From positions 34,403 through 98,402 of the forward strand of contig NZ_JARRAF010000018.1 in assembly GCF_030129945.1 (NCBI RefSeq): DNA of 64,000 bases, written 5' to 3'. Source of the stretch: Parachitinimonas caeni. Lineage in GTDB: Bacteria > Pseudomonadota > Gammaproteobacteria > Burkholderiales > Chitinimonadaceae. The notes beneath the pieces were generated by a model. It was not told the DNA's origin, did no database searches, and saw only the letters and a program-made list of their open reading frames with translations. This document shows, piece after piece, positions 225-64,000 of the stretch; positions within the stretch are counted from its first letter, which is position 1, and the number at the start of each line of letters is the position of its first letter. Position numbers and translations under genes: made by a program.

Positions 225-522
225 GCTGTTGATGTTTTGTTTCCAGTCGCGCCGGTCCGAATTTGGGGGCAGGGTAAGCGTACCCTAACGTATCCCCGTC
301 CCAAATCGACCCGGCCTTGCGTGGCGGTAGCGGCACAGCGCTTACCAGCACGGCATCCCCTTGCGGGGACGGAGCGTTTCGCCGGATTGGGGCCTGTTGC
401 GGTGCTGACTACTGCACCCAGACGGGAAGCTGCGAGGTTTACCACTCAGTGGCGCGTCTTTTTCCTTGCATCGGGCCCGTATCCGACAAAGCGCGATCCA
501 GAAATGGAATCTCATGGAGTCA
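225..522. repeat. Composite intergenic repeat element A with inverted ends
   Basis: The element opens with the repeat core GCTGTTGATGTTTTGTTTCC (225-244) followed by AGTCGCGCC. It closes with an inverted, diverged version (about 491-522; reverse complement reads TTTCTGGATCGCG). Inside are two hairpin modules: 252-268 against 298-314, and 381-400 against 468-487 (15 of 20 positions match in the inverted arms). The second module, read on the minus strand, aligns with the element at the window end, including the conserved string GCGCGCC then CT.AGTG.TAA.CC.CGC. Short open frames inside it look non-coding. This is a REP/BIME- or MITE-like element by inference. Confidence 0.7.
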
Positions 523-616
523 GGCCTTTGTACGGGAATGCCTCCAGTGAGGAGATGAAGGGCTGGGGCAGGGCTTATGTTTCTGGTTCTTCAGGTGATC
601 GAACTTAAGGGCGGAG

Positions 617-1510
617 GTGTTGGATTTGGAAATCTATCAGTTGCGCACCTTTGTCGCGGTGGCGCAGCAAGGCCATCTGACGCAGGCTGCGGAGATTCTG
701 CATCTTTCCCAACCTGCCGTCACGGCACAGATCAAGGCGCTGGAGGAAGAAACAGGCCTTGCACTGTTTGATCGCACCACGAGCGGAGTAATGCTGACGG
801 AGGCTGGAAAGCTACTCCTGCCCGAGGCGGAAAAGATATTGGCAGGCAGCTGGGACATGCTGAACAAGGCTCGATCACTCAAAGGCCAGCTGACCGGGAA
901 GTTGCGAATCGGGACGATTGGCAGCCCTTCGCTGTTGCGCTTGGGGCGTTGGCTATGCTGCCTGCGGTCTCGCCACCCTCTGCTGGCGCTGGTTACCGCA
1001 CATGGCATTTCTGGCTCTGTGCTGAACGATGTGCGCAAGAAAGAGCTGGATGGCGGTTTTTTTGTGGGTAAAAACCCGTATCAAAATGTGTTTGGCCTGC
1101 CGCTGCGTGAAGTGAGGTTTCGTCTGGCAATGCCTGCTGAATGGGCGGTCCGCTTGCAAGGGGCTGACTGGCGTAGCTTGGGTCGTGAGCTATGGATCGG
1201 GCATTCGCAGTTCTCGTCGCTGCATAAGCTCAGTAGTGAGCTTTGGCGCGAGCATAATATTTCTCCCAAGAAAATCGGTGAGATTGATCAGGAAGCAACC
1301 CAACTTGATCTGGTCCGGGCAGGGATGGGTTTGTCTTTGCTGTCGGAAGAGGTGGTGGCAGAACCGCTGGCGCGGGGTGAAATTGCGCTGGTTGATGGTG
1401 TGGAGGTAACTGCACCGCTGGCATTTATTTATCCGGCCGAGCGTGAGAACGATCCGCTATTGCAGGCGATGCGCGCCGCACTCTATGAGGTATGGGAGCT
1501 ACCGGCGTAA
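617..1510 (+). CDS. LysR-family transcriptional regulator
   Basis: The product (297 residues from this start) has a typical LysR winged helix-turn-helix at about residues 5-64 (IYQLRTFVAVAQQGHLTQAA, LSQPAVTAQIKALEEETG) and a periplasmic-binding-protein-like effector domain from about residue 92. The annotated start is GTG at 617. A TTG at 626 is preceded by GGAGGTG six bases upstream and would give an N-terminus MEIYQLRTF, which is usual for the family; it is arguably the better start. No target gene can be assigned: the upstream space is occupied by a repeat element and the downstream gene is convergent. The 3' end overlaps the convergent CbiX gene by 28 bases. Confidence 0.85.
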   Translation: MLDLEIYQLRTFVAVAQQGHLTQAAEILHLSQPAVTAQIKALEEETGLALFDRTTSGVMLTEAGKLLLPEAEKILAGSWDMLNKARSLKGQLTGKLRIGTIGSPSLLRLGRWLCCLRSRHPLLALVTAHGISGSVLNDVRKKELDGGFFVGKNPYQNVFGLPLREVRFRLAMPAEWAVRLQGADWRSLGRELWIGHSQFSSLHKLSSELWREHNISPKKIGEIDQEATQLDLVRAGMGLSLLSEEVVAEPLARGEIALVDGVEVTAPLAFIYPAERENDPLLQAMRAALYEVWELPA

Positions 1511-1881
1511 TCACAGATCCAGTTCGCCATGGCCGCTTGAACGACGGGTGATTCGCCAAGTGCTGGCGATTCTTGGATATGAAGTTGCGGATGCTGTTGG
1601 CGAATGCTGTCGAGTAGCGTCGGGAGATCGCGCTTCAGATGCCCGCCTCGCGCCATAAAGGCAGGCACAACCAGAATGTCGGAGATTCCAGCTGTGGCAA
1701 GTGCGGCGATGCAGTTTGCCAACGAAGGCTGCATGAGTTCCAGATAAGCGATTTCAACTTTGGCCTCAGGCCGCCGTTGCCGCAACGCATCGGCCAGCTG
1801 TTCAAATGGCTGCGCCCATTGCGGGTCGCGAGCGCCGTGTGCAAACAAGACAATGGCGGTATGTGGCAAGACTGACTCCAA
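1483..1881 (-). CDS. cbiX: CbiX/SirB-type sirohydrochlorin chelatase
   Basis: This 132-residue protein matches small, single-domain CbiX chelatases, which insert cobalt or iron into sirohydrochlorin for cobalamin or siroheme synthesis. The N-terminal motif VLFAHGARDPQW carries the first metal-binding histidine, followed by EIAYLELMQPSL and by VVPAFMARGGHLKRDLP with the second conserved histidine. The length agrees with the short (CbiX-S) form, half the size of two-domain SirB. No other tetrapyrrole gene is adjacent, although hemH lies 8 kb away. The choice between cobalt and iron as substrate cannot be made from sequence alone. Confidence 0.8.
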   Translation of the reverse strand: MESVLPHTAIVLFAHGARDPQWAQPFEQLADALRQRRPEAKVEIAYLELMQPSLANCIAALATAGISDILVVPAFMARGGHLKRDLPTLLDSIRQQHPQLHIQESPALGESPVVQAAMANWICDYAGSSHTS

Positions 1882-2030
1882 TCAAACGCAGTGGACTTTA
1901 GATTTTGCCATGGCTGGTGGCTGAATGGCGTGGCATACGTGTTATGCGGTACTGCACGTAGGCGTGATTGGATAAGGCGGTGCAGCGCAGATTGATTTTG
2001 GAATCCAACTGTTGGCATCTAATTGATGCC

Positions 2031-2062
2031 AAAAAAGCAAAACCCCTGCAGAGCAGGGGTTT
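2031..2062 (-). terminator. Intrinsic terminator of rpmB-rpmG
   Basis: On the minus strand an AACCCCTGC stem, a three-base loop and its perfect complement are followed by TTGCTTTTTT. It lies 30 bases after the rpmG stop codon. Confidence 0.85.
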
Positions 2063-2091
2063 CAGGCATTTCGCTGCAAGGGCAGGCCCAA

Positions 2092-2247
2092 TTACTTGAG
2101 CTTGGTTTCCTTGTAAACGACGTGCTTGCGAGCTACCGGATCGAACTTCTTGATTTCCATCTTTTCCGGCATCGTCCGCTTGTTTTTGGTCGTTGTGTAG
2201 AAGTGACCAGTACCAGCAGTCGATTCGAGCTTGATCTTTTCACGCAT
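2092..2247 (-). CDS. rpmG: 50S ribosomal protein L33
   Basis: The 51-residue product begins [20 protein letters not shown] and ends in [11 protein letters not shown], the full-length L33 of the large ribosomal subunit. It contains no cysteine, so it is the zinc-independent (C-minus) form. The ribosome binding site GAGGTAA sits just upstream of the ATG. It is the second gene of the rpmB-rpmG operon, 15 bases after rpmB, and is followed by a clear terminator. Confidence 0.97.
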
Positions 2248-2262
2248 GATGAATTACCTCGA

Positions 2263-2496
2263 TTAAGCTTCGCCGCGAGCGCGCAGGTCGGCCAGAACAA
2301 CGTCAATGCCTACCTTGTCGATCAGACGCAGACCAGCATTGGACAAACGCAGACGGACCCAACGATTTTCGCTTTCAACCCAGAACTTGCGGTATTGCAG
2401 GTTCGGCAGGAAGCGGCGTTTGGTCTTGTTATTGGCATGGGAAACATTGTTCCCTGTCATCGGACCCTTGCCGGTGACTTTACATACACGGGCCAT
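2263..2496 (-). CDS. rpmB: 50S ribosomal protein L28
   Basis: The 77-residue product starts [20 protein letters not shown] and ends [11 protein letters not shown], matching bacterial L28 at full length. L28 is a structural protein of the large subunit. The gene is the first of a two-gene operon with rpmG, an arrangement common in proteobacteria, and is preceded by a promoter at about 2591-2619. Confidence 0.97.
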
Positions 2497-2590
2497 GATT
2501 GAAACTCCCGACTTATTTTCTTTGGAAAAACTGAATTTTTAACACAAACGCCGTCCGACTGGCAAGCCAAGGGCCGGCAAAAGAGGCAGC

Positions 2591-2619
2591 ATTCTGCGCG
2601 TATACGACACTTTTGTCAA
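2591..2619 (-). promoter_or_regulatory. Sigma-70 promoter for rpmB-rpmG
   Basis: On the minus strand there is a perfect -35 box TTGACA (2614-2619), a 17-base spacer and a -10-like CAGAAT (2591-2596). It points at rpmB about 95 bases downstream. The rest of the 2497-2772 gap shows no gene. Confidence 0.7.
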
Positions 2620-2732
2620 TTTTGACTATCTGCGCGAAAACAAAAGACATTTTGGATGAAAAAAGAACGCGGTCATCCAGGTTGGATGCCGCGCCAATGC
2701 GAGGAACAACTGCTCGGTTTGCGGGATGTCTG

Positions 2733-2766
2733 GCAGGGCGGGGATTGGCTGTTCGGGCCGCCCTGC
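2733..2766 (-). terminator. Stem-loop after the sugar-transport ATPase gene
   Basis: GCAGGGCGG (2733-2741) and CCGCCCTGC (2758-2766) form a perfect 9-base stem with a 16-base loop, just after the stop of the MalK-like gene. There is no U-run, so it may be a 3' processing or stabilising hairpin rather than an intrinsic terminator. Confidence 0.45.
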
Positions 2767-2772
2767 AACAGA

Positions 2773-3885
2773 TCAGGCAATGCGGTTTTCGCTGGCAGGA
2801 TCGAACAGCAGTGCCTTGCTGGGATCAATGACCAGGGTAGCGGTTTGGCCAGGGGCCATACCGGCCTGCGGGTGGCAGCGGGCGGTGACCTTCACGCCGT
2901 TGAATTGACTGGTGACCAGTGTATCGGGGCCGGTTGGCTCGGTGATTTCGACTTTGGCTCGGATCAATTGCAGATTGGGCTGGTCGGCTTGTGCGCTGCC
3001 CTGATCGGTAATCTGTTCTGGCCGGATGCCAAGGATGACCGATTTGCCCACGTAGGGGCGCTGCGCCGTGCCAAGCGGGCCAAGCTTTGCTGGGAAAGTT
3101 TCGGTGCCATTGTCGAGTCGGACGATGGCTTGCCCCTCCGCTTCTTCCAGTGTTGCGGGAATGAAGTTCATGGCAGGGGAGCCAATGAAACCGGCCACAT
3201 ACAGATTGGCGGGGGTGTCGTAGATCTGTTGTGGGGTGCCGAACTGCTTGACTTCACCATCCTTCATCACGGCGATACGGTCGCCCAGGGTCATGGCTTC
3301 GATCTGGTCGTGGGTAACATAGACAATCGTGGTGCCCATGCGTTGGTGCAGCAGTTTGATTTCGGTGCGCATTTCTACTCGCAGCTTGGCGTCCAGATTG
3401 GAGAGTGGTTCGTCAAACAGGAAGAGCGTGGGGTTGCGCGCCAGCGCCCGGCCCATGGCAACGCGCTGACGTTGGCCACCCGAGAGCTGGTTGGGTTTGC
3501 GATCAAGCAAGTGGCTGATCTGCAGCATATTGGCTACCCGCTCGACAATGGCTTTCTGCTCTGCCACGGGAATCTTGCGGATTTCCAGACCAAAGGAAAT
3601 ATTCTGCCGAACCGTCATATTCGGGTAGAGCGCGTAGCTTTGAAACACCATCGCGATATCCCGGTCTTTGGGTGGAAGATGGTTGACCAGGCGGTTGCCG
3701 ATGTGGATCTCGCCTGAAGAGATGTCTTCGAGCCCGGCAATCATGTTGAGTAAAGTGGATTTGCCACAGCCAGATGGCCCGACCAGAATCAGAAACTGAC
3801 CCTTGTCGATGTCAATATCGATGCCCTTGAGGATATGGGTGTTGCCGTAAGACTTTTTGACGTTGCGTATCGAAAGTGCGCCCAT
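2773..3885 (-). CDS. gtsD: Sugar ABC transporter ATP-binding protein, MalK/UgpC type
   Basis: The 370-residue ATPase energises the importer encoded by the three upstream genes. It has Walker [10 protein letters not shown] (residues 36-44), the ABC signature LSGGQRQR, Walker B LFLFDEP, a switch histidine in VYVTHDQ, and the C-terminal TOBE domain typical of MalK-type subunits. A longer open frame reaches 3984, but the ATG at 3885 is preceded by AGGAG at good spacing and gives the conserved N-terminus [14 protein letters not shown]; the longer version would overlap the permease gene. The name gtsD follows the resemblance of the whole operon to Pseudomonas glucose transporters; malK or ugpC would be equally used. 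Confidence 0.85.
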
Positions 3886-3917
3886 GATGTTGCTCCTGTG
3901 CCAGCTGCTGCCGGCGA

Positions 3918-4796
3918 TTAACCTTTGACTGCGCCGGCTGTCAGCCCGCGGATGAAGTACTTGCCGCCGAAGGCGTAGACACACAGCGTCGGTAGCGCCG
4001 CGATGATGGCTGCAGCCATTTCCACGTTGTAGTGCTTGACCCCGGTCGAGGTGTTGACGAGGTTGTTGAGCGCTACGGTCATGGGTTGGGTTTCACCGGC
4101 CGAGAACACCACACCAAACAGGAAGTCGTTCCAGATCTGGGTGGTTTGCCAGATGACGCAGACGGCAATGGTCGGCAGGGAAATGGGTAGCATGATGCGG
4201 AAGAAGATCCGCAGAAAGCCGGCCCCATCAATGCGGGCGGCCTTGACCAGCTCATCGGGAATCGTCACGTAGAAGTTACGGAAAAACATGGTGGTAAAGG
4301 CCAGACCGTAAATGGTGTGCACCAGAACCAGCCGCGCCGTGCCGTTTTCAAGCCCGAGAAAGCCCAGCATCTGCGCCATGGGCAGGATCACCACCTGGAA
4401 TGGCAGGAAGCAGCCGATCATCAACAGGGTGAAGAACAGATCGCTGCCCTTGAAGCGCCACATCGCCAGCACATAGCCGTTGACCGCCCCAATCAGGGTC
4501 GAGAGTGCGACGGCAGGCACCAGCATCTTGATTGAATTCCAGAAGTAACCTTGAATGCCTGAGCATTCGACCCCGGTGCATGCCGACGACCAGGCGGTGG
4601 ACCAGGCTTCGAGTGACGGGGCGGCAGGTAGGGCCAGCAGATTGCCATTGCGTACTTCCTCCAACGACTTGAGCGAAGTGACGACCATGACGTACAGCGG
4701 GGCCAGGTAGTAGAGCGCGAACAAGGCCAGTACGGCATAGATACCGAAGCGGCCGATGCGGGCGGCTGGGGTCTGGTGGTAGGCAAGATCAGCCAC
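3918..4796 (-). CDS. gtsC: Sugar ABC transporter permease, GtsC/MalG type
   Basis: This 292-residue inner-membrane protein has about six membrane segments (first at residues 14-40) and the binding-protein-dependent permease loop around [21 protein letters not shown], which docks onto the ATPase. The start is GTG at 4796, with GAGGAG nine bases upstream, inside the end of gtsB (8-base overlap), implying translational coupling. It resembles the second permease of glucose/mannose importers, but the sugar is inferred from the operon rather than from this protein. Confidence 0.85.
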
Positions 4797-5751
4797 GGCG
4801 TTGACTCCTCAATTCGGAATACAGGAAAGGCACCACGATCGCTGCAGCGGTTGCCAGCATGATCATGGCGCTGGCCGCACCGAGGCCCAGCTGACCACGG
4901 TTGAAGCCGTGCTGATACATGAAGATCGACGGCAGGTCAGTAGCAAGGCCAGGGCCGGCATTGGTCAGGGCCATTACCAAGTCAAAGCTCTTGATGGCAA
5001 TGTGAGCGAGGATCATGAAGGCGCTGAAAAATACCGGGCGCAGGCTGGGGATGACGATGCGGCGGTAGATGGTGGGCAGATTGGCACCATCGACCTGCGC
5101 TGCTTTGATGATGGCATCGTCGATACCTCGCAGACCTGCCAGGAACAGGGCCATGACGAAACCGGATGATTGCCAGACGCCGGCGATGACCACGGTGTAG
5201 ATCGCCATGTCCGGATTGACGATCCAATCGAATGTAAAGTCGCTAAAGCCGAAGTCGTGCATCAGTTTCTCAAGCCCGAGGCCGGGATTGAGCATCCACT
5301 TCCAGGCCGTGCCGGTGACGATGAAACTGAGCGCCATCGGGTAGAGATAGATGGTGCGCAGGGCGCCTTCACGACGGATTTTCTGGTCCAGAAAGACGGC
5401 CAGCAGCAATCCGACGGCCAGAGAAAAGAAGATGAACAACCCGCCAAAGACGCCAAGGTTTTTCATGGCGGCCCACCAGCGTTCATTGCTGAAGAGTTCC
5501 TGGTATTGCACCAGCCCGACGATTTCGTACTTGGGCAGAATGCGCGACTCAGTCAGGGATAGCCAGGCTGTCCACAGTACGAATCCATAAAAGCAGACAA
5601 GGCTCGCCACCATGGTGGGTGCGACGACGATCTTGGGCAAGACCACATCAACCAGCCGGCCGAAGCGGCTGGCCGACGCCGTTTGGAGGGATGGCATGCT
5701 CGGGCTTCCTTCATGCAAGGTCAGTTGAGCGCCAGAGGGCGACGGGGACAT
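4789..5751 (-). CDS. gtsB: Sugar ABC transporter permease, GtsB/MalF type
   Basis: The first permease of the importer, 320 residues from the ATG at 5751, which has GGAGGT just upstream; the open frame extends to 5802 without a better start. Membrane segments begin near residue 40, and the ATPase-coupling loop reads IIKAAQVDGANLPTIYRRI. Strings such as DQKIRREGALRTIYLYPMA and ALSFIVTGTAWKWMLNPG are very characteristic of Pseudomonas GtsB. It lies 283 bases downstream of the binding-protein gene, with a UUCG-capped hairpin between them. Confidence 0.87.
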   Translation of the reverse strand: MSPSPSGAQLTLHEGSPSMPSLQTASASRFGRLVDVVLPKIVVAPTMVASLVCFYGFVLWTAWLSLTESRILPKYEIVGLVQYQELFSNERWWAAMKNLGVFGGLFIFFSLAVGLLLAVFLDQKIRREGALRTIYLYPMALSFIVTGTAWKWMLNPGLGLEKLMHDFGFSDFTFDWIVNPDMAIYTVVIAGVWQSSGFVMALFLAGLRGIDDAIIKAAQVDGANLPTIYRRIVIPSLRPVFFSAFMILAHIAIKSFDLVMALTNAGPGLATDLPSIFMYQHGFNRGQLGLGAASAMIMLATAAAIVVPFLYSELRSQRRG

Positions 5752-5938
5752 GGTGACCTCCGTGACATTAGTTATAAGGGACGCAGCAAAGTCTGCTGCC
5801 AAGTGGGCCTGACAGGCTGCAATCGGCTATGTGCCGGCTGAGGCATGGCGCCTCAGACGGATACCTCGATCCCTTCGCTCAGGACGAACGCCATCCGTGG
5901 CAGGCAGGATGCCGGTGGCGATAAGAGGGAGGGGAGGT

Positions 5939-5960
5939 GGGGCTGGCCGAAGCCAGCCCC
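5939..5960 (-). other. UUCG-tetraloop hairpin between gtsA and gtsB
   Basis: On the minus strand GGGGCTGGC, loop TTCG and GCCAGCCCC form a perfect 9-base stem closed by the very stable C(UUCG)G tetraloop. No U-run follows, so it is more likely a 3' end-protecting or processing hairpin that keeps the binding-protein message abundant relative to permeases, as known for malE-malF. The remaining 5752-6034 gap shows no gene. Confidence 0.7.
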
Positions 5961-6034
5961 GGCAGCGGGAAGGATAGGAGCCATACCGCTGCCAAGCCGG
6001 GCGCAACCGGCATCTATTGACGCCAGAGGGGTGC

Positions 6035-7288
6035 TTAGCGCTTTTTCGAGGCGGCGATGAGCTTTTGCACGGCGTCTTTGCTGCTCATGCTGGAGTTCAT
6101 GAAGTTGGATACCACGTCCACGACCGCGCCTTGTGTAGCACTGGGCATGGCCATGCCGTGGGCAAATGAAGGCACCAGGCCACCGCTCTTCGACGTGGCA
6201 ACGAAGTCGTCCATCGACAGGCGGGCGCAGTCGTCGAACTTGGTCTTGGGCATATTCAGGCGCGCAGGAATCGAACCCTTGTTCAGGTTGAAGACTTCCT
6301 GAAACTCGGGAGACAGGATGGAAGCGGCCAGATCGTTGGTCACTTTCATGTCTTTCGACTTCTGCGAGAACAAGACGAAGCTGTCGATATTGAAGGTGTA
6401 AGCCTTGGCGGTGCCAGGAGCGGGTGCGCAGATGAAGTCTGTGCCGGGTTTCTTGCCGGCAGCAGTGAATTCGCCTTTGGCCCAGTCACCCATGAACTGC
6501 ATGGCGGCCTTGCCATTGATGACCATGGCGGTGGCCAGATTCCAGTCACGGCCGGGGCTGTCCTTGTCGGTGTATTTCTTTACCAGGCGCAGCGTATCGA
6601 AAACCTTTTCGGTCGTGGGGCTGGCCAATGCGGCGGCGTCGAGTTTGACGAAAGCTTTCTGATAGTAATCTGCGCCGCCTACTCCCAGCGCAATCGATTC
6701 GAAGACGGTCGCGTCCTGCCAGTTCTGGCCACCGTGGGCGACCGGAATGAAACCGGCTTTCTGGATCTTGTCGGCGGCTGCTGCAAATTCATCCCAGGTG
6801 GTGGGGATCTTGGCACCGGCTTTTTTGAAGACTTCCGGGTTCACCCACATCCAGTTGACGCGATGAACATTGACGGGCACCGCCACATAGTTGCCCTTGT
6901 ACTTCATGACATTGGCGACGACGGGTGGCAGCAGGGTGTCCCAGCCGCCGGCTTTAGCAACCGGGTCGAGATTCGCGAGCACCCCTTCATTACCCCATTC
7001 CTGAATCGATGGGCCTTTGATCTGAGCGGCAGTGGGTGGGTTGCCTGATACGACGCGGGTTTTGAGTACGGTCATGGCATTTTCGCCGCCACCGCCAGCT
7101 ACTGCAAAATCCTTCCAGGTATGGCCTTTGGCGGCCATCATCTTTTTCAACTCGGCTGCCGATTTGGCCTCGCCGCCGGAGGTCCAGTAGTGCAGCACTT
7201 CCACTTCGCCGGCATGGGCGAGGGCCGTGGCGCCGAGCAGGCCGATTCCGGCAATGAGGGCGTGTAGCGGTGTACGGGATTGCTTCAT
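6035..7288 (-). CDS. gtsA: Periplasmic sugar-binding protein, GtsA type
   Basis: A 417-residue solute-binding protein of the carbohydrate family. The ATG at 7288 has AGGAG eight bases upstream and yields a classic signal peptide, residues 1 to about 26 ending ATALAHA. The mature start GEVEVLHYWTSGGEAKSA and later GNPPTAAQIKGPSIQEWG closely resemble glucose/mannose-binding GtsA of pseudomonads. It captures the sugar in the periplasm and delivers it to GtsBC. An open frame extends to 7351 but adds a charged stretch that would spoil the signal peptide. Confidence 0.88.
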   Translation of the reverse strand: MKQSRTPLHALIAGIGLLGATALAHAGEVEVLHYWTSGGEAKSAAELKKMMAAKGHTWKDFAVAGGGGENAMTVLKTRVVSGNPPTAAQIKGPSIQEWGNEGVLANLDPVAKAGGWDTLLPPVVANVMKYKGNYVAVPVNVHRVNWMWVNPEVFKKAGAKIPTTWDEFAAAADKIQKAGFIPVAHGGQNWQDATVFESIALGVGGADYYQKAFVKLDAAALASPTTEKVFDTLRLVKKYTDKDSPGRDWNLATAMVINGKAAMQFMGDWAKGEFTAAGKKPGTDFICAPAPGTAKAYTFNIDSFVLFSQKSKDMKVTNDLAASILSPEFQEVFNLNKGSIPARLNMPKTKFDDCARLSMDDFVATSKSGGLVPSFAHGMAMPSATQGAVVDVVSNFMNSSMSSKDAVQKLIAASKKR

Positions 7289-11028: not shown

Positions 11029-11236
11029 GTCTGGGTGGATTAAGAAACGGTGGTCAGGATGATAGCAGGCCGTCTGACCGGCGCCGTGGTTGAATTGCGC
11101 TGATTCTGATGTCAACACGCTGGCGGCATCTCTTTCCGGGCGCCAAGCGTGCAGGACCGAGTCGGCCCGAGGACAAAGTGAAGTCCGGTTCAGCACTGGA
11201 TGGGGGTGTGCTGGCCGTTGGCGTCGGGGCTTGGGT

Positions 11237-11281
11237 GCTGTTGACGGCTTATTTCCAGATCGGAAAAAAACCGTCAACAGC
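11237..11281. repeat. Repeat element B: 45-base near-palindrome of two opposed cores
   Basis: GCTGTTGACGGCTTATTTCC (11237-11256) and the inverted GGAAAAAAACCGTCAACAGC (11262-11281) differ at only two of 20 positions, with AGATC between. Each arm is a copy of the repeat core seen elsewhere in the window. It lies 11 bases past the stop codon of the ChrB-like gene and could act as a transcription terminator; the 11029-11236 stretch has no gene. Confidence 0.75.
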
Positions 11282-11292
11282 GCCCGATCAGC

Positions 11293-17558: not shown

Positions 17559-17590
17559 GGCGCGACCGGAAACAAAACGTCAACAGAGCC
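17559..17590 (-). repeat. Repeat element C (single core copy)
   Basis: Read on the minus strand this is GGCTCTGTTGACGTTTTGTT followed by TCCGGTCGCGCC, the best match to the window-wide repeat core. It separates the two paralogous binding-protein genes. Confidence 0.75.
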
Positions 17591-19717: not shown

Positions 19718-19936
19718 GGCGAGAGTCTTTGATTAGCGGTTCCAGATCTGCGGCGTAGTGGTCTGCCTGTTTCCAGCGGGGGTATTCCAGATTTCTCGAC
19801 TGGATGGCATCCGTAACGACGTGCAGCAGACTTGGATGAGTTGTCATAAAAAGCAGCTTACTGTCATCTTAACGGCGGACTCTGGTTATCGGTAGAATGC
19901 GCTTTGTGATGTCAGTTATAAGACTTGTTTATACCA

Positions 19937-20812
19937 ATGGATATTGATACCTCTCTGCTGCGGGCTTTCGTGATGGTCGTCCGGCACGGCAGCATCAATC
20001 GTGCGGCCAGCTTGCTGGGCCGCACACAACCCGCCCTGAGCCAGCAGATGCGCAAGCTTGAAGAGTTGCTGGGGCAGGCTGTGCTGGTACGCTCAACACG
20101 AGGTATCAGCCTCACGCCTTCGGGAGAGACATTGCTGCCTTACGCTGAGCGCATCGTGGCTTTGGCCGATCAGGTGGTGCCGGATATGCGGGGGCCGGCC
20201 AAGGCGGGCAACCTGCTACGTAAGGTTGGACTGATTGAAGACTTGATCGGTGCGCGTTTGCCGAATGTACTGGCGGATTTCGCAGCTGTTCATCCGGGTC
20301 TACGGTTGGAGGTGCAGGTTGCCCCCTGGCGTCAGATGAGCCAAGCCTTCATAGAGGGTGAGCTTGATGTGCTGGTGACGGATCTTGCAGCGGCAGAGGA
20401 TATTCCTCAGCCTCCGGTGGGTATGTTTGCCTGCCCGCTGGTGTGGCTGGGCGCAATGGGGCAGGCATGGCCAGACCCGCTACCGCTTATTATGTTTGCG
20501 CCGCCTTGCACTTGGCGCGCCACCATCCTGACCGCGTTGAATCGCACGCAGATGCCCTGGCAGATCATGTTTGAAAGCCCCAGCTATCAGGCGGTTCAGG
20601 CAGCCTTGCAGGCAGGGCTGGGCCTGACGGCCTTGTTGCCGGATGCGGTGCCTCGTGGCGTGCAACGCGTCGTCGATGAGCGATTGCCGCCTTTGCCACC
20701 GGTTTCGATCGGTGTGTTCCGTCAGCCCACAACGATGGGTGATCCGATTACTGATGAGTTATGCCGATTGTTCCTGCGTGAGATTGGCGGTATTGCCGCG
20801 CAAACGGCTTAA
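19937..20812 (+). CDS. LysR-family transcriptional regulator
   Basis: A 291-residue LysR regulator starting MDIDTSLLRAFVMVVRHGSI, with the helix-turn-helix at about residues 4-62 (RTQPALSQQMRKLEELLGQA) and an effector-binding domain. A TTG at 19925 would add four residues; neither start has a good ribosome binding site. It is divergent from the DMT-type membrane protein gene and probably regulates it. The intergenic region ends in TATAAGACTTGTTTATA, a loose dyad next to the start that could be an autoregulatory site. Confidence 0.85.
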   Translation: MDIDTSLLRAFVMVVRHGSINRAASLLGRTQPALSQQMRKLEELLGQAVLVRSTRGISLTPSGETLLPYAERIVALADQVVPDMRGPAKAGNLLRKVGLIEDLIGARLPNVLADFAAVHPGLRLEVQVAPWRQMSQAFIEGELDVLVTDLAAAEDIPQPPVGMFACPLVWLGAMGQAWPDPLPLIMFAPPCTWRATILTALNRTQMPWQIMFESPSYQAVQAALQAGLGLTALLPDAVPRGVQRVVDERLPPLPPVSIGVFRQPTTMGDPITDELCRLFLREIGGIAAQTA

Positions 20813-20813
20813 G

Positions 20814-20843
20814 GCCTGTTGACATCTTGTTTCCGGTCGCGCC
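20814..20843 (+). repeat. Repeat element D (single core copy)
   Basis: GCCTGTTGACATCTTGTTTC followed by CGGTCGCGCC matches the repeat core. It starts just after the LysR stop codon. Confidence 0.7.
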
Positions 20844-20905
20844 GTTGCCATCGCACGCAATGACGCGGACGGATCGCCGGTCTGCCCGAAGCGCCCGATA
20901 GCCAG

Positions 20906-22529: not shown

Positions 22530-22557
22530 GCGCCAAAACTGAAATTTCAACAGAGCC
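22530..22557 (-). repeat. Repeat element E (degenerate core)
   Basis: The minus strand reads GGCTCTGTTGAAATTTCAGT then TTTGGCGC. The first ten bases match the repeat core exactly; the rest is diverged. It lies just after the pilU stop. Confidence 0.45.
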
Positions 22558-32590: not shown

Positions 32591-32645
32591 AGCAAGGATG
32601 GGTTCAGGCTCGCCTTGCTTGTCTAGCGCGTGAGCGCTTTTATAT
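32591..32645 (+). promoter_or_regulatory. Two leader stem-loops before rpsO
   Basis: AGCAAGG (32591-32597) pairs with CCTTGCT (32613-32619), and AGCGC-GTGA-GCGCT (32625-32638) is followed by TTTTAT. They lie in the truB-rpsO gap and may end truB transcripts or belong to an rpsO leader. Confidence 0.5.
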
Positions 32646-32661
32646 TTGGAGTTTTATTTAA

Positions 32662-32931
32662 ATGTCTATCAGCACCGAACAAAAAGCTGAAATCGTTAAG
32701 CAATACCAGCGCGTCGCCGGTGACACTGGATCCCCAGAAGTACAAGTTGCATTGTTGACCGCACGTATTAACGACTTGACTGGTCACTTCAAGGCCAACA
32801 TGAAGGATCACCACTCTCGTCGTGGTTTGCTGAAGATGGTTAGCCGTCGTCGCAAGTTGCTTGACTACTACAAGCGTACTAACTTGGAAGGCTACCGTGA
32901 GCTGATTGCTCGCCTCGGTCTGCGCAAGTAA
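32662..32931 (+). CDS. rpsO: 30S ribosomal protein S15
   Basis: The 89-residue product matches S15 in full: [40 protein letters not shown] and [21 protein letters not shown]15 binds 16S rRNA early in 30S assembly and in enteric bacteria represses its own translation. It is followed by an intrinsic terminator before pnp. Confidence 0.98.
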
Positions 32932-56954: not shown

Positions 56955-56996
56955 GATACCTCCTTGGGGGGGTGGCTTTAAAGCGAGGTTGTGAGA

Positions 56997-57025
56997 TTTA
57001 TAGTAATGGTTCTTGGTTTTAGCAA
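56997..57025 (-). promoter_or_regulatory. Promoter of the AT-rich ATPase gene
   Basis: On the minus strand TTGCTA (-35, 57020-57025), 17-base spacer and TATAAA (-10, 56997-57002) lie 42 bases before the start codon. Confidence 0.65.
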
Positions 57026-57050
57026 TTCATGTTGAATACGTTGCTTTGTT

Positions 57051-57080
57051 TTGTAACTGGAAATGGTTTTCTCTTACAAT
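57051..57080 (+). promoter_or_regulatory. Promoter of srkA, possibly leaderless
   Basis: TTGTAA (-35), 18-base spacer and TACAAT (-10, 57075-57080). A start seven bases after the -10 falls exactly on the A of the srkA ATG at 57087, and no ribosome binding site is visible. Confidence 0.55.
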
Positions 57081-57086
57081 GCCCCC

Positions 57087-58073: not shown

Positions 58074-58697
58074 TCACCAGTGCTGGCTGAAAACACGGGT
58101 GACGGCTTCATCGGCTTCAATTTTCTGCAGGGTTTTGTAAAGGTGTGGGCGCGATGCCGCGATATGTGGTCTGGCGCCTGACCATTTCGAGACGACTGCT
58201 GCCAGCAGGTCGAGCGCTCCCAGCTGTGGGCCGCTCAGATAAGGTTCGCGCCAGAAGCAATCGGCAAACAGATCCCAGTAGTGATGCAGGCGATCGCGGG
58301 CCCCTTGGCGGATGGCTTTGAGGGTGGCTTCGTCGTGCTTGGTACTCCAGCGTTCCGGGTAATCAATCACCCCTATGGCGGCGTAGCAGTTGGCGGCAAG
58401 GTAGACCAGCCCGCGAATGACCTGCGCCCGATCGGCCGCATCGGCGGGTAGCAGTTCGCTGACCGGGTGATTGAGCCCAAGGTGAATCAGGATGGCGGCA
58501 CTCTCTGTCAGAACGGTTCCGTCGTGCAGCTGCAGGGTTGGGATCTGGCCCAGCGGGTTGATGGCGAGCAGTTCCTTGATGGCGGATTGCGGGTCCCATG
58601 ATGCTGCCTGGCAGACCCGGAAGGGTTGGAGGGTTCTTTCCAGGGCAAGCTCGATGGCTGCTGAACCAGAGCCCTTGTAGCCAAAGAGTGTGTACAT
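58074..58697 (-). CDS. Glutathione S-transferase family protein
   Basis: A 207-residue GST-fold protein. The N-terminal thioredoxin-like domain starts MYTLFGYKGSGSAAIELALE and includes NPLGQIPTLQLHDGTVLTES, with the conserved cis-proline and glutathione-contacting ES pair. The all-helical C-terminal domain contains WREPYLSGPQLGALDLLAAV. The substrate is unknown. The gene is convergent with srkA, with no spacer between stop codons. Confidence 0.85.
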   Translation of the reverse strand: MYTLFGYKGSGSAAIELALERTLQPFRVCQAASWDPQSAIKELLAINPLGQIPTLQLHDGTVLTESAAILIHLGLNHPVSELLPADAADRAQVIRGLVYLAANCYAAIGVIDYPERWSTKHDEATLKAIRQGARDRLHHYWDLFADCFWREPYLSGPQLGALDLLAAVVSKWSGARPHIAASRPHLYKTLQKIEADEAVTRVFSQHW

Positions 58698-58962
58698 CCT
58701 TTGTCCCCTTGCTGCATCGCTTTTGGGTTACGAGAACTTTTAAACACCGTCTATAGTCTTTTATGGCGCGATAGCATGAAGCCTGCATGGGGCAGGGGGC
58801 TGATACGGAATGTGTTGTCCGGCGTGGCTACCCGCACCGCCCTGTAAGTGTCTGGTCTGCCCGTTCATGCTGATCGCCTGGTGACTCGGGGCTGGTATCG
58901 GTAATCGGTATAGCCTGTCTGATGTCACTTTGCCCTGCACCTCATCACTCAGGAGATTCTCG

Positions 58963-59469
58963 ATGTCGTTGTCGATGTATCAGGTTTCCGTTGCTGTCAT
59001 GCCGCACTTTCTTAATAGCCTGTCGGTGATTCTCGATAAAGCCGTCGCGCATGCCGATGCCAAGAAGTTTGATATGGCGGTGCTACTCGGTAGCCGTCTG
59101 GCGCCCGATATGTTCCCGCTTTCGCGGCAGATTCAGATCGCCAGTGATCTGGCCAAAGGCTGCGCCGCCCGGCTGGCAGGGGTGGAGCCGCCGAATTGGG
59201 AGGATAACGAGACAACAGTGGAAGAGCTGAAGGCGCGTATCGCCAAGACGGTCGATTACCTGCAAACCTTCAAACCCGAGCAGATTGATGGCAGCGAGAG
59301 TCGTACGGTTGTGCTGAAAATGCGCAGCGGCGAATTGACTTTCGATGGCCTGACGTATCTAAACCAGTTTGTGTTGCCCAACTTCTATTTTCATCTGACG
59401 ACGGCCTACGACATCTTGCGGCATAACGGTGTGGAGCTGGGCAAGAAGGATTTTCTTGGGGCAAAGTAG
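58963..59469 (+). CDS. DUF1993-family protein
   Basis: A 168-residue soluble helical protein. The ATG at 58963 has AGGAG seven bases upstream. Family-typical parts are LDKAVAHADAKKFDMAVLLG, SRLAPDMFPLSRQIQIASDL and FYFHLTTAYDILRHNGVELG, of the DinB-like superfamily annotated DUF1993. The role is unknown; the histidines could bind metal as in DinB-fold proteins. It ends before a long bidirectional terminator. Confidence 0.85.
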   Translation: MSLSMYQVSVAVMPHFLNSLSVILDKAVAHADAKKFDMAVLLGSRLAPDMFPLSRQIQIASDLAKGCAARLAGVEPPNWEDNETTVEELKARIAKTVDYLQTFKPEQIDGSESRTVVLKMRSGELTFDGLTYLNQFVLPNFYFHLTTAYDILRHNGVELGKKDFLGAK

Positions 59470-59490
59470 CCAGGAGCGGCGACTTATCCG

Positions 59491-59528
59491 CAAACAACAA
59501 AGGCCGCAAATGCGGCCTTTGTTGTTTG
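59491..59528. terminator. Bidirectional terminator between DUF1993 gene and mog
   Basis: CAAACAACAAAGGCCGC pairs perfectly with GCGGCCTTTGTTGTTTG around a short AT loop. The A/T-rich lower stem gives a U-run in both directions, suited to the two convergent genes. Confidence 0.9.
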
Positions 59529-59545
59529 TCGGAACAAAAAGCGGA

Positions 59546-60130
59546 CTAGTGGGGTCGTTGTGCCGACTTGGGCCGGAATGCACTGACGACTTCCGACCGG
59601 GTTTCGAGGTAGGGGCCGCCGATCAGGTCGATGCAGTAAGGGATGGCGGCGAAAATGCCCGGCACCTTGGTCTGGCCGGCTTCGTCTTTGAGCCCTTCCA
59701 GGGTTTCCTTGATCGACTTGGGCTGACCCGGCAGATTCAGAATCAGGGACTGGCGGCGGATGACGCCGGTCTGGCGTGACAAGATAGCCGTCGGCACAAA
59801 CTGCAGGCTGATCTGTCGCATCTGCTCACCAAAGCCGGGCATGACGCGGTCGGCAATCGCCAGCGTGGCATCGGGCGTGACATCGCGTGGCGCGGGGCCG
59901 GTGCCGCCAGTGGTCAGCACAAGATGGCAGTGCAAGTCATCAACCAGATGAATCAACGTAGCTTCGATTTCAATCTGCTCGTCTGGAATCAGTCTTTCCA
60001 CCCACTCCACCGGATTGTGCAGGGCTGTGGTCAGCCACTCTCGCAGGGCGGGCAGACCCTTGTCTTCATATACGCCGCTGGCAGCGCGATCGCTCACCGA
60101 AACCAGCCCGATCTTTACCGTTTCATACAT
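59546..60130 (-). CDS. mog: Molybdopterin adenylyltransferase
   Basis: A 194-residue MogA-type enzyme that adenylates molybdopterin before molybdenum insertion. Key strings are KIGLVSVSDRAASGVYEDKG, HLVLTTGGTGPAPRDVTPDA and LSRQTGVIRRQSLILNLPGQ. The ATG at 60130 has GAGG six bases upstream; the open frame to 60196 adds a basic stretch read through the upstream spacer. It is preceded by darP, 22 bases away, so the two may form one transcript. No other molybdenum cofactor gene is in the window. Confidence 0.92.
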   Translation of the reverse strand: MYETVKIGLVSVSDRAASGVYEDKGLPALREWLTTALHNPVEWVERLIPDEQIEIEATLIHLVDDLHCHLVLTTGGTGPAPRDVTPDATLAIADRVMPGFGEQMRQISLQFVPTAILSRQTGVIRRQSLILNLPGQPKSIKETLEGLKDEAGQTKVPGIFAAIPYCIDLIGGPYLETRSEVVSAFRPKSAQRPH

Positions 60131-60152
60131 GGCAGCCTCATTCCGTTCGGGT

Positions 60153-60713
60153 TCAATCCTCGTTGGTTTCGTCCTCGTCCTCGTCTTCGTCGGCAAGACG
60201 TGGCGCGGCGGGCTCGGCGATCACTTCCTTCAATAGCTGAAACAGCTGGCGATAAGCTTTGGGCGGCTTGCCGGCGGCCTGTTCGGCCTTGGCATTGCGA
60301 ATCGCCTGCCGCATCGACTGCACGGGGGCTTCCGGGTGCTCGGCAATAAACGCTGCCAGGGCAGAGTCATCGGCAATCAGCGTATCGCGCAGACGCTCCA
60401 GGCGGTGCAGCCAGGCATTGTGGCGGTCGGACGTGGCGCGAAGCGTGCTCAGGAATTCCCGGATCGGTTCCGGGTCGAGGTCGCGCATCAGTTTGCCGAT
60501 GTACTGCTTCTGGCGTTTGATGGCGCCGCGCTCGGTCAGGCGCTGTGATTCCAGCAGGGCGTCAACCACCCGCTCCGGCAGGTTCAGGCGTTCCAGCTGC
60601 TTGCGCTTGAGGGGCATCAGCTGTTCGCCCAGCTCCTGCATGTCGTGGGCTTCCTGCTTGCGGCGGGTTTTGCTGGGTTGGTCGTATTCGGGATCAAATG
60701 GGAGGTCAGACAT
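60153..60713 (-). CDS. darP: Ribosome-associated protein DarP (YjgA)
   Basis: A 186-residue basic/acidic helical protein matching YjgA, now DarP, which acts in late 50S subunit assembly. Typical strings are PSKTRRKQEAHDMQELGEQL, KRQKQYIGKLMRDLDPEPIR and AKAYRQLFQ-like KPPKAYRQLFQLLKEVI. The C-terminal tail is extremely acidic. The ATG at 60713 gives the family start MSDLPFD; a TTG at 60734 is less likely. It is divergent from pmbA, a very conserved pairing. Confidence 0.92.
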   Translation of the reverse strand: MSDLPFDPEYDQPSKTRRKQEAHDMQELGEQLMPLKRKQLERLNLPERVVDALLESQRLTERGAIKRQKQYIGKLMRDLDPEPIREFLSTLRATSDRHNAWLHRLERLRDTLIADDSALAAFIAEHPEAPVQSMRQAIRNAKAEQAAGKPPKAYRQLFQLLKEVIAEPAAPRLADEDEDEDETNED

Positions 60714-60860
60714 CGTGGCGGGGCCGTCTTGCAAAGTTTGTTATGATACTGCATGCGGTGCCATGAAGGCGCCTGCGCCCGTCTGTTCAAGGCAAATCTG
60801 GCCAAATAGCGCCAAAAACCCTACATAAACTTCCAACATTTCAATATTCGAGGGCTCCCT

Positions 60861-62204
60861 GTGACCACGACCCAATTCGCCTATTCCTCCGAACAGCTCC
60901 AGATGCTTGCCGCCGATGCGCTACGCATGGCTGCCGATGCCGGGGCAACTTCCTGCAATATCGAGGTATCTGAAGGTTTTGGCCAGAACGTGTCGGTACG
61001 GGTTGGCGCCGTCGAAACCATCGAGTACAACCGCGATAAAGGGATCGGCATCACCGTATATCTGGGACAGGCCAAGGGGCATTCCAGCACCTCTGACTTC
61101 TCCCCGACGGCTATTCGCCAGGCCGTTGAGGCTGCCGTTGCGATTGCCCGCTATACCGCTGCGGATGATTGCGCCGGCCTGCCGGATCGCGAGCAGCTGG
61201 CAACGGTGTTTCCCGAGCTTGACCTCTACCACCCGTGGGATCTCTCCGTTGAAAGAGCGATCGAACTGGCACTCAGCTGCGAGGCTGCGGCGCGGAATAT
61301 TGACCCTCGGATTACCAATTCTGACGGGGCCGGCGTGTCGAGCCATGCTACCCATTTTGTGTACGCCAACAGCCTGGGCTTTTCAGGCTATAGCGTCTCC
61401 AGCCGGCACAGCATGAGCTGTTCAGTCATCGCTGAAGAAAACGACACCATGCAGCGCGACTACTGGTACACCACGGCACGGGCCGCCGAGGATCTGGAGT
61501 CGGCGATTGCCGTGGGTGAGCACGCCGGCCGGCGCACGCTGGCGCGGCTGGGCGCACGGCGCATCAAGACGGCGCAGGTGCCGGTGCTGTTCGATCCTTC
61601 CCAGGCGGCGGGCCTGTTTGGCCATCTGGTGTCGGCAGTCAGCGGCGGCTCGCTGTATCGTCGTTCTTCATTCCTGCTCGACAGCCTGGGCAAGCCGGTG
61701 ATGGCACCCTGCGTCAACGTTCACGAGACCCCCTTCCTGCCGAGGGGCCTGGCCAGCTCGCCGTTCGATGGCGAAGGGGTGGCTGTTCACGAGCGTGACC
61801 TGGTCGAAAACGGTGTGCTCAACGGCTACTTTCTGTCTTCCTATACCGCCCGCAAGCTGGGCATGACCACAACCGGCAATGCCGGTGGTTGCCATAACCT
61901 GCTGATCAAACCAACGATTACCGGTGGTCAGGCTGAGCTGATCAAGACTATGGGGCGCGGCCTGCTGGTGACCGAGCTGCTGGGACATGGCATCAATATG
62001 GTGACCGGTGATTACTCGCACGGTGCAGCGGGTTTCTGGGTGGAAAATGGCGAAATCGTCCATCCGGTCGAAGAAGTGACCATCGCCGGCAATCTGAAAG
62101 ATATGTTCATGGGCATTCAGGCGATTGGTTCCGATCTGGAAACCCGTGGCTCGAAGCGAGTGGGTTCGGTACTGATTGACCGCATGATGGTTGCTGGCGA
62201 GTGA
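60861..62204 (+). CDS. pmbA: Metalloprotease subunit PmbA/TldE
   Basis: A 447-residue PmbA (TldE), partner of TldD in a protease that matures peptides such as microcin B17 and degrades CcdA. Motifs are GFGQNVSVRVGAVETIEYNR, DKGIGITVYLGQAKGHSSTS and NAGGCHNLLIKPTITGG. As expected for TldE it lacks the HExxxH metal site of TldD. The start is GTG with CGAGGG upstream. The divergent partner is darP. The stop overlaps the start of the glycosylase gene (GTGA). Confidence 0.94.
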   Translation: MTTTQFAYSSEQLQMLAADALRMAADAGATSCNIEVSEGFGQNVSVRVGAVETIEYNRDKGIGITVYLGQAKGHSSTSDFSPTAIRQAVEAAVAIARYTAADDCAGLPDREQLATVFPELDLYHPWDLSVERAIELALSCEAAARNIDPRITNSDGAGVSSHATHFVYANSLGFSGYSVSSRHSMSCSVIAEENDTMQRDYWYTTARAAEDLESAIAVGEHAGRRTLARLGARRIKTAQVPVLFDPSQAAGLFGHLVSAVSGGSLYRRSSFLLDSLGKPVMAPCVNVHETPFLPRGLASSPFDGEGVAVHERDLVENGVLNGYFLSSYTARKLGMTTTGNAGGCHNLLIKPTITGGQAELIKTMGRGLLVTELLGHGINMVTGDYSHGAAGFWVENGEIVHPVEEVTIAGNLKDMFMGIQAIGSDLETRGSKRVGSVLIDRMMVAGE

Positions 62205-62821
62205 GACCGGAGTATTGGGAGCAGGCTTGCCATGAACTGGCCGAGCGTGACGCCGTTCTGGCACGCCTGCTACAGCAATATCCCGGTGAATGTCTGGAGG
62301 GCAAGGGGGATGCGTTCATTACCCTGGCCCGGTCTATCGTCGGCCAGCAGATTTCGGTCAAGGCTGCGGAAACCATCTGGGGCCGCTTGGCGCAGCGGCT
62401 GGGCGAAGTCAGCTCGCATGCCCTGCTGACCATGGCAGAGGCCGATCTGCAGGCTTGTGGGCTGTCGTCGCGCAAAGTCGCCTATCTGCAGGATCTGTCA
62501 CATCGGCATGTTGCTGGCCAGCTGTCAGTGCGCGATTGGTTGGATCGGGATGACGAGGCCGTCATTGCAGAACTCATCACCATCAAGGGCATCGGCCGCT
62601 GGACGGCCGAGATGTTCCTGATCTTTCACTTGCTGCGGCCGAACGTGCTGCCGCTCGACGACATTGGCCTGCAACGGGCGATGGCGCAGTTTTATAACCA
62701 CGGCGATCCAATATCCAAGCTCAAGATGCGTGAAATTGCCAGAGCGCTGTGGCAACCGTGGTCCAGCGTTGCTACCTGGTATCTGTGGCGTAGTCTGGAC
62801 CCGCTGCCGGTGGCGTATTAG
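62201..62821 (+). CDS. DNA-3-methyladenine glycosylase, AlkA/HhH-GPD family
   Basis: A 206-residue base-excision glycosylase. ITLARSIVGQQISVKAAETI opens the HhH-GPD domain; the helix-hairpin-helix is LITIKGIGRWTAEMFLIFHL, followed by NVLPLDDIGLQRA with the catalytic aspartate. It lacks the extra N-terminal domain of E. coli AlkA, as in compact bacterial homologues. It removes alkylated purines. The start is GTG overlapping the pmbA stop by four bases, implying coupling. The end overlaps the convergent GAF gene by four bases. Confidence 0.88.
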   Translation: MRPEYWEQACHELAERDAVLARLLQQYPGECLEGKGDAFITLARSIVGQQISVKAAETIWGRLAQRLGEVSSHALLTMAEADLQACGLSSRKVAYLQDLSHRHVAGQLSVRDWLDRDDEAVIAELITIKGIGRWTAEMFLIFHLLRPNVLPLDDIGLQRAMAQFYNHGDPISKLKMREIARALWQPWSSVATWYLWRSLDPLPVAY

Positions 62822-63513
62822 TCGGCGCCCGCTGGCAAATACTCCACCGCCATCAAACATAGCCCGATCACCCATCCCAGCCTTTCGCCATCAAACCAGC
62901 TGGCCCGGCTGTCTTCAACATCGACAATACCGACTACGGTGCCGGCCGAATCGAATAGTGGCAGGCAGGCTTCTGACTGCACGGCCGGATCACACTTGTA
63001 ATAGGCGCCGCCGGCGGCAACGTGGTCAGCCACCCGTGAAATCAGCTTGGCTTGGCCACTCAGACCAACCGTGCTGTTGTTGGAATGGGCGGCAAATTCT
63101 GGCGTCAGTGGAAACTCTGCGCGGCTGGGTTTGCCCTGGTAGGCCAGTTTGATCAAGGCGCGGCTGCCATCGGCGAGTTGGCGCGCCTGGTAGATGCCAG
63201 CCCAACCGGCTTCAGTGCGTTCGCTGAGCCGTTGCACCATGGCGTTGAGCGCTGCCAGCTGACGGCTGGTCTGTGCGCTTTCACCGCCCAGAATCCGGCT
63301 CAGATCATAGGGGGCCGCAGCCAGCGACTCAAACAGCGAGCAGCTGCCATCATCAGACAATTCCGGCACCCGGTAGCGGTAGAGATCTGAGTCAGCACGG
63401 GCGTGGCTGGCGGCATCGGCCAGTTCTGCCAGCGCTCTTTCGGCTTGGGCGACGGTGGCGGCATCCGGTACGGGTAATCCGGCGCGTTCGCAATAGCGGA
63501 GGATGGGGCTCAT
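62818..63513 (-). CDS. GAF-domain protein
   Basis: A 231-residue soluble protein. A helical N-terminal part (about 1-90) precedes a GAF domain at about 90-225, with AGWAGIYQARQLADGSRALI and YYKCDPAVQSEACLPLFDSA followed by TVVGIVDVEDSRASWFDGE. The latter resembles free-methionine-R-sulfoxide reductases (cysteine in the YKCD context), but the match is partial and enzymatic function is uncertain. Sensing of a small molecule is the alternative. It is convergent with the glycosylase gene. Confidence 0.7.
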   Translation of the reverse strand: MSPILRYCERAGLPVPDAATVAQAERALAELADAASHARADSDLYRYRVPELSDDGSCSLFESLAAAPYDLSRILGGESAQTSRQLAALNAMVQRLSERTEAGWAGIYQARQLADGSRALIKLAYQGKPSRAEFPLTPEFAAHSNNSTVGLSGQAKLISRVADHVAAGGAYYKCDPAVQSEACLPLFDSAGTVVGIVDVEDSRASWFDGERLGWVIGLCLMAVEYLPAGAD

Positions 63514-63876
63514 TGATTTTCCTGTTCGGAATGGAGGGGAATGCGTAGAAACGGCGGGTTCGCATCATCTCACCCCTGTGCGCTAAATCAAAGTTGCTGC
63601 CTACTCCTGCCCCTTTGCTGCCGAGCTGACATCGGCGGAAGGGTGACATTCTGGTCGCCAAAGCACCTCCCCGACTGAATGGCGAATGGCAAATGGCCAA
63701 CAGCGCCTAAAACTGCGGTCGAAGCCGCTGAAAAATTTCTGCTTCATTCCAACGATGAAATAGCCATTTGGTGAGTTGTACGCCCGGATCGTTAGGTGAA
63801 AATAGGCGCGTGGCAAATCAGCTTGAAGGCCGGATGAAGGTTTGGTGTTGACCGCAATCGGCCGGCTACGACTTTG
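63514..63876. other. Intergenic region before repeat element F
   Basis: No convincing gene is present: the open frames here lack ribosome binding sites and recognisable motifs. Confidence 0.5.
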
Positions 63877-64000
63877 GCTCTGTTGACGTTTTATTTCCGG
63901 ATCGCGTTTCGTCGGATTTGGGCCTGATGCAAGGCAAAAAGCGCGCCGCTTAGTGATAAGCCACGCGATTTTTAACGCGGCGGCAGGCCCAAATCCGGCG
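63877..64000 (+). repeat. Repeat element F, cut by the window end
   Basis: It begins TCTGTTGACGTTTTATTTCC after GGC, then GGATCGCG. Inverted arms GTCGGATTTGGGCCTGATGC (63911-63930) and its near-complement at 63980-63999 match at 17 of 20 positions. The interior carries the same conserved string as element A (GCGCGCC, CT.AGTG.TAA.CC.CGC). It continues beyond the window. Confidence 0.75.

Follow-up and report, generated by a model that had tools for sequence, protein, structure and literature searches.

Which kind of repeat lies scattered between the genes of a 64,000-nucleotide stretch of the Parachitinimonas caeni genome, and what moves it? The stretch, called the window here, comprises bases 34403-98402 of contig C99, which ends at window base 64000. 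An earlier note on the window had described a core recurring at six intergenic places in varied architectures and suggested a mobilised or structural family, either of the repetitive extragenic palindrome/bacterial interspersed mosaic element (REP/BIME) type or of the miniature inverted-repeat transposable element (MITE) type. With good confidence, the repeats can be read as copies and remnants of a non-autonomous MITE with a predicted two-armed interior, for which an IS5-family transposase of the IS427 type likely provides mobility in trans. Judged from the anatomy, membership of a MITE family is near certain, and an IS5-type partner insertion sequence (IS) is likely on sequence grounds. The suggestion of a mobilised family of MITE type was borne out by inverted ends, TA flanks, hundreds of copies, ISs with matching ends, and an empty site.

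The earlier note had proposed a search of the whole genome with the core. In the 5.65-Mb, 337-contig genome, the 20-base core was found at 284 places with up to two mismatches and the reversed pattern at none, which upholds a repeat family of intergenic type. Own loci were sampled as stretches around copies among the first 100 of these 284 places, all with exact cores, together with an unselected run of 295.7 kb from contig C222. TA formed no part of the end pattern. It lies directly outside 98 of 128 distinct ends (up to four mismatches), against a TA dinucleotide share of 2.8% in C222, and it is preceded by C at 70 of the 98 TA-flanked ends. TA is present on both sides in 30 of the 49 paired own elements, and the sequences show a YTAR target, mostly CTAG. 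Ten of the 128 ends abut another element's end over one shared TA, two of the ten being a single junction (L010). Solo ends are frequent in this genome, though the exact-core list is biased to left ends (GTTTTGTT), so that left and right solo counts from it are not comparable. For 18 of the 100 exact cores listed, a contig start is no more than 260 bases away, and the repeat family helps explain breaks in the assembly.

In C222, blastn detected 26 loci (E ≤0.01; reversed control empty), which make up 1.18% of its sequence. Using the author's own open reading frame (ORF) and codon-usage caller, 23 of these overlap no predicted ORF by more than one base; at the remaining three the overlap is 30, 39, and 7 bases, the first of them being a weak match (E 6e-3). 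That the repeat always lies outside genes is true of the four window loci detected by blastn and of 23 of the 26 loci in C222, but not of the other three. A position mostly right after a stop codon had also been claimed. The TAG or TAA of the upstream ORF is formed by 20 of 132 ends, with three ends having less than 300 bp upstream dropped from the count, compared to 3 and 1 in the other-frame controls; window sites 222 and 20812 are of this kind. However, stop codons account for 57 of 236 non-coding YTAR sites, and the share per element is close to that chance level. Because it resembles the chance offer of YTAR sites, it is not evidence of targeting, and stop-codon targeting was dropped as an explanation.

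The full unit is 266 bp long, with terminal inverted repeats of at least 18 bp that extend into an outer stem of about 30 bp. In the predicted fold of the 266-bp consensus most bases are paired, forming this outer stem, a small hairpin, and two arms of about 100 nt each. One natural copy has a predicted folding energy of -155.9 kcal/mol as RNA (z -12.4) and -88.9 kcal/mol as DNA (z -10.9). The 49 paired own elements range from 45 to 376 bp, below the roughly 500 bp that bounds a MITE, with 6 at 45-52, 6 at 64-134, 9 at 149-207, 22 at 256-267, and 6 at 319-376 bp. When 22 copies of the 266-bp form were aligned, the median pairwise identity was 92%; one row (L067) was wrongly oriented, which affects the printed minimum identity and not the majority consensus. 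The lengths resolve into a modular series, in which the 45-52-bp forms are the outer stem alone, several of the 149-207-bp forms lack one arm, the 256-267-bp forms have two arms, and the 319-376-bp forms carry added hairpins. A single modular element thus accounts for the varied architecture noted earlier, from stem-only, one-arm, two-arm, and extra-hairpin forms to solo ends. At 266 bp, the unit is too short to encode a transposase. The genome also contains a second MITE subfamily with ends near GGTTCTGTTGACGTWAGRTTT (L044 713-979, L021 17278-17544, and L079 979-1139), and its L044 copy keeps 103 of 108 pairs of the main form, with 13 double changes. Two further loci, L053 766-1103 and L015 at about 5706-5890, hold an extra module (AGTAGGCCGTG...) that is absent from the main form, suggesting the gain of further hairpin modules as whole units.

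Comparison with sister genomes bears on movement. Among 21 loci fetched from seven sister species of genus g56, a part of the many more copies carried by these genomes, no insertion site is held in common within flanks of up to 1.4 kb. Domestication, which a conserved position would signal, was rejected for the same reason, as no flanks are shared in the 21 loci. The site of the L146 copy could be aligned without the element in two sister species (G409 and G410), which represent empty sites. At this site the flank matches abut in G408, are separated by 58 bases in G412, and by about 260 bases in G352 and G062. Taken together, the lack of a shared site, the empty site, the TA flanks, and the abutting copies identify a mobile element.

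Candidate partners were found outside the host genome. Chitinimonas sp. BJB300 (G004) carries an 854-bp IS between TA and TA with ends GGCTCTGTTGACGTATTG and GGCTCTGTTGACGTTTTG; of its 18-bp ends, one is identical to that of the MITE and the other has one difference. Its transposase is encoded in two overlapping frames with matches to PF01609 (E 9.6e-17), PF13340 (E 4.2e-10), and PF13586 (DDE_Tnp_1/DUF4096 type). A metagenome-assembled genome of Azonexus contains an 852-bp IS with such ends and TA flanks. The end search covered 17 of 22 loci plus three of G004, and related ISs with ends of the form GGNYCTGTTGA and TA flanks were found in 7 of these 20 loci (L105, L107, L111, L112, L115, L116, and L123). 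The other 13 gave no pair or an unrelated best pair, although one of them, L092, does have the ends, flanked by TA on a single side. In genus g163 (G420 and G416), protein homology at 42-43% identity to the Chitinimonas transposase identified ISs of 857-858 bp with open frames, ends GGGTCTGTTGACGTTTCA, and TA flanks, and 9 of 11 MITEs fetched from this genus have the same 18 bases as the g163 IS at both ends. The genome G420 carries the IS together with 15 MITEs. The matching of IS and MITE ends in Chitinimonas, Azonexus, and g163 indicates that the ends mostly change together, lineage by lineage.

These ISs resemble the IS427 group of the IS5 family, which in the available part of its description spans 832-865 bp and mostly makes 2-bp direct repeats (PMC3281130). 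They are likewise 852-858 bp long with TA flanks and a DDE_Tnp_1 plus DUF4096 frame (Pfam scan of the Chitinimonas IS), and the group label rests on size, TA repeat, and Pfam domains rather than on ISfinder. The MITE shares the terminal 18 bases with these ISs and differs from the IS427 group in being too short for a transposase. Three other candidates were rejected. The PF01609 matches in the P. caeni assembly are contig-end pieces of a different IS, whose ends GATAGTGTCGTCACGAG differ from those of the MITE; this IS5-type element (L072, L073, L089, L091, and L093) is flanked by CTA or TAG where seen, and the assembly breaks inside it. An ISL3-type transposase, suggested by the GG-CTCT ends, is represented by one partial match, with the core absent nearby. 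IS630-type (DDE_3) transposases occur as two genes on contig C311 without core ends; on this 6.8-kb contig (L070 and L071) the two genes lie on opposite strands, and one frame continues to 554 aa.

Relatives of the MITE extend well beyond the host. An exact-end pattern (up to one mismatch) has matches in 2 of 10 genomes from the same family and in 4 of 399 from the order. In a second family, a gapped whole-element pattern is present in 19 of 43 genomes and 6 of 11 genera (reversed control 0 in all 43), with up to at least 29 copies per genome among the matches listed. The 55 distinct relatives taken from the listed matches and two earlier loci measure 263-269 bp, 44 of them 265 or 266 bp, under a pattern that admits only about 250-280 bp and leaves shorter variants such as the 180-bp L130 uncounted. 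TA stands on both sides of 32, on one side of 16, and on neither side of 7. By eye, arm 1 of L153 (G419) and L156 (G423), both of genus g163, looks closer to that of the P. caeni elements than to that of their neighbours, a hint of transfer between families.

A third family, Burkholderiaceae, was reached through a blastn search of a plasmid collection with L151, whose only match, 105 bases in Caballeronia (72.6%, E 1e-5), lies inside a 285-bp element. With this element as query, blastn matched 21 places, spread over 6 Burkholderia, Caballeronia, and Paraburkholderia records; 10 of the places are on one B. stagnalis replicon. The Burkholderiaceae relatives have the ends GGGTCTGTTCACC in L238 and otherwise ends of the form GGGTCTGTTTA, and they too are predicted to take the two-armed fold, at -200.6 kcal/mol for L238 (z -17.6) and from -186 to -201 kcal/mol for the others. 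TA is found on both sides of L239, L240, and L242 and not of L238. With borders set by script, L238 measures 285 bp, L239 and L240 283 bp, L241 304 bp, and L242 310 bp, the right border of L241 overshooting its true end. At L239, an annotated gene on the minus strand stops at the element's last base, with TA and that base forming its stop codon. The elements of L027, L145, and L149 had no match among the plasmids, and searches of viral contigs, phages, and E. coli gave none either.

The relatives allow the predicted fold to be assessed by comparison. An alignment of 59 elements, the 55 relatives and four from P. caeni, was given to RNAalifold, which returned 86 pairs, 65 of them showing at least one double-sided compensatory change. 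Of the cells, 95.5% are paired, a percentage that leans towards the fold because the structure was derived from the same alignment. The double-changed cells are the stronger evidence, numbering 963 compared to 290 in the shuffled and 128-203 in the slid versions. Similarly, the P. caeni consensus and two copies from G145 are 65% identical, and 97 and 91 of 108 pairs are kept, with 19 and 20 double-changed. In three of the four elements tested, one arm resembles an inverted copy of the other (z 5.6-7.8). In addition, a loop motif, C-N-AGGC facing AAC, is present in arm 1 of 54 of the 59 elements and mirrored in arm 2 of 48.

Departures from pairing indicate on which molecule the fold may be maintained. 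A G-T mismatch on one strand is an A-C mismatch on the other, so an excess of G-T would be expected if a single RNA strand were under selection. Two fixed wobble pairs (columns 137-148 and 178-221) were set aside; without them there are 85 G-T and 87 A-C departures, and with the 105 G-T cells that they add the counts are 190 and 87. The equal counts suggest that the palindrome is kept in DNA, or that both strands are kept alike, rather than as one-strand RNA. Together with a bipartite loop motif that is inverted on both arms, the absence of a strand preference means that the fold most likely acts in DNA.

Several observations weigh against a TA-targeting MITE moved by an IS5-type partner and bearing a selected fold. 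TA is missing outside 30 of the 128 own ends and at four of the six window sites. The arm likeness fails in one of the four elements tested (G000sub2, z -0.7), and 2 of the 11 g163 MITEs (L153 and L156) have ends unlike those of the g163 IS. The P. caeni assembly, 97% complete in 337 contigs, yielded no intact transposase flanked by these ends. In the second family, homologues of the Chitinimonas transposase occur in 3 of the 19 genomes with the element and in 5 of the 24 without the pattern, so that across the 43 genomes there is no association between transposase and MITE presence. Finally, the equal G-T and A-C counts fit hairpin-templated repair free of selection as well as selection at the DNA level.

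Such repair is the main rival for the covariation. Under this explanation, which we hold possible if tentative, the element is an ordinary MITE with a functionless palindromic interior, whose arms stay paired because misaligned hairpin replication copies one side onto the other. Equal departures (85 and 87) are what would be expected if no strand were read as RNA, and the existence of own forms without one or both arms (46-207 bp) points the same way. However, templated repair should erase internal loops, yet the C-N-AGGC/AAC motif is kept in 54 of 59 first arms and 48 of 59 second arms. The length is also steady, at 263-269 bp in the 55 relatives (under a pattern admitting about 250-280 bp), while three copies from Burkholderiaceae measure 283-285 bp. 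A structured RNA is less likely still. Here, the element would be co-transcribed with its neighbours and its arms would serve as hairpins of 3' or 5' untranslated regions (UTRs) with roles in stability, termination, or RNase III cleavage. The highly stable predicted fold (z -12.4) and the locations between and just behind genes agree with this, and Correia and ERIC elements, reported to act as UTR hairpins in the available part of the source, set a precedent (PMC10969869). Against it stand the lack of strand bias among departures from pairing and the Rfam 15 search, in which the elements had no match at the gathering score or at E ≤0.1; at the latter threshold two sub-threshold microRNA matches appeared, both outside the elements. 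An RNA gene was rejected on the absent Rfam match and the absent wobble bias.

The REP/BIME half of the earlier suggestion, in which repeats are spread by a REP-associated tyrosine transposase (RAYT, Y1), fares far worse and is very improbable. Many intergenic palindromic copies are shared with REP/BIME repeats that have a RAYT (see also PMC3733652), and the genome has two Y1_Tnp matches, its only ones. Both are partial 70-residue frames at the start of a contig, and neither 1.7-kb locus contains a core, so no RAYT link was found. In addition, the element is longer than such repeats, with a 266-bp unit, two inverted ends of at least 18 bp, and TA on both sides, and its ends equal those of IS5-type elements. 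A REP proper, a single palindrome of 20-40 bp without target duplication, was rejected on the full unit and the TA flanks. The proposed check for a RAYT or a transposase with matching ends thus came out in part, yielding ISs with matching ends in relatives but no core-linked Y1 gene.

Among the known systems closest to the P. caeni element are type II MITEs such as ERIC, Correia, QMITE, and Chunjie as characterised in the accessible portion of the source (PMC10969869). These are likewise short and mostly intergenic, with inverted ends, a direct-repeat flank, size variants, truncated copies resembling REPs, and homology to an autonomous element at the ends only (PMC10969869). The element differs from type II MITEs in its unit of 263-269 bp and its branched two-armed fold, which compensatory change has preserved in several genera and families; that portion describes no comparable measure (PMC10969869). 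Correia and ERIC elements are similarly palindromic intergenic mini-elements with up to hundreds of copies (PMC10969869). Unlike them, the present MITE has ISs with matching ends at hand in relatives of its host. The ends and lengths of Correia and ERIC also differ from those of this MITE. Among titles and the beginnings of abstracts, no description of this element was found.

How a MITE with this fold might be mobilised can be outlined as a model. If the transposase reads only the ends of about 18 bp, anything between two ends would be movable. When the element is single-stranded, for example on the lagging strand during replication, the outer stem of about 30 bp may join the ends while the arms fold out, and this arrangement would favour end pairing by the transposase. 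An element that lost one or both arms would then appear as a 149-207-bp or 45-52-bp form, and one with a decayed end as a solo copy. That the fold aids transposition is a bold proposal.

In the window itself, the core GGCTCTGTTGACGTTTTGTT is found with up to three mismatches at four places, compared to 0.01 expected from shuffles, namely 222-241 (+), 11265-11284 (-), 17571-17590 (-), and 63876-63895 (+). Five of the six proposed sites are members of the family. What had been taken for a core of about 29 bases at 225-253 is instead the start of a decayed, near-full-length copy of the long form on the plus strand, which begins at 222 and reaches at least to 514 (blastn against a 374-bp form, 70%, E 3e-34; local alignment 223-514); its TA flank at 220-221 lies within the stop codon TAA (220-222) of the upstream ORF. 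The site at 11237-11281, described as present on both strands, is indeed a palindrome of 51 bp at 11234-11284, an outer-stem-only form recovered by a paired-end search, in which the left end meets the right end and both arms and TA flanks are absent; its predicted folding energy is -31.4 kcal/mol. A solo left end of 32 bp lies at 17559-17590 (-), 100% identical by blastn to consensus bases 1-32 and lacking a TA flank. Another is located at 20812-20844 (+), aligned at 93% to the genome's own consensus, with a TA (20810-20811) that belongs to the stop codon of ORF 19925-20812 upstream. At 63876-64000 (-) lies half an element, comprising the right end and arm 2 of the full element (the 266-bp consensus read backwards; 94% to consensus bases 141-266), which is truncated by the end of contig C99 and has no TA flank. 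The sixth site, a proposed degenerate copy at 22530-22557 (-), was not confirmed as a member, since it matches only the first 11 core bases (GGCTCTGTTGA), has no TA flank, and gave no blastn match. Separately, an S15 leader (Rfam RF00114; 40.4 bits, where the gathering score is 39.5) occupies window positions 32611-32718 (+) and is an ordinary ribosomal leader.

The part of the source at hand treats bacterial MITEs as IS derivatives and takes them one family at a time, mostly inside a single genus or species (PMC10969869). This kind of element is known; what is new is the conservation of a two-armed architecture across families. The same plan of two inverted ends and two arms over about 265-285 bp recurs in three bacterial families, while the letters have diverged to about 65% identity. 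A wider and more speculative possibility is that these elements form a class of mini-transposons widespread in many genera of Betaproteobacteria, in which a selected three-way-junction fold is recognised or helped as folded single-stranded DNA and feeds a cut-and-paste IS transposase. It becomes testable whether the foldback shape of a MITE is an accident or a working part of transposition, and G420 offers matched MITE and IS ends within one genome.

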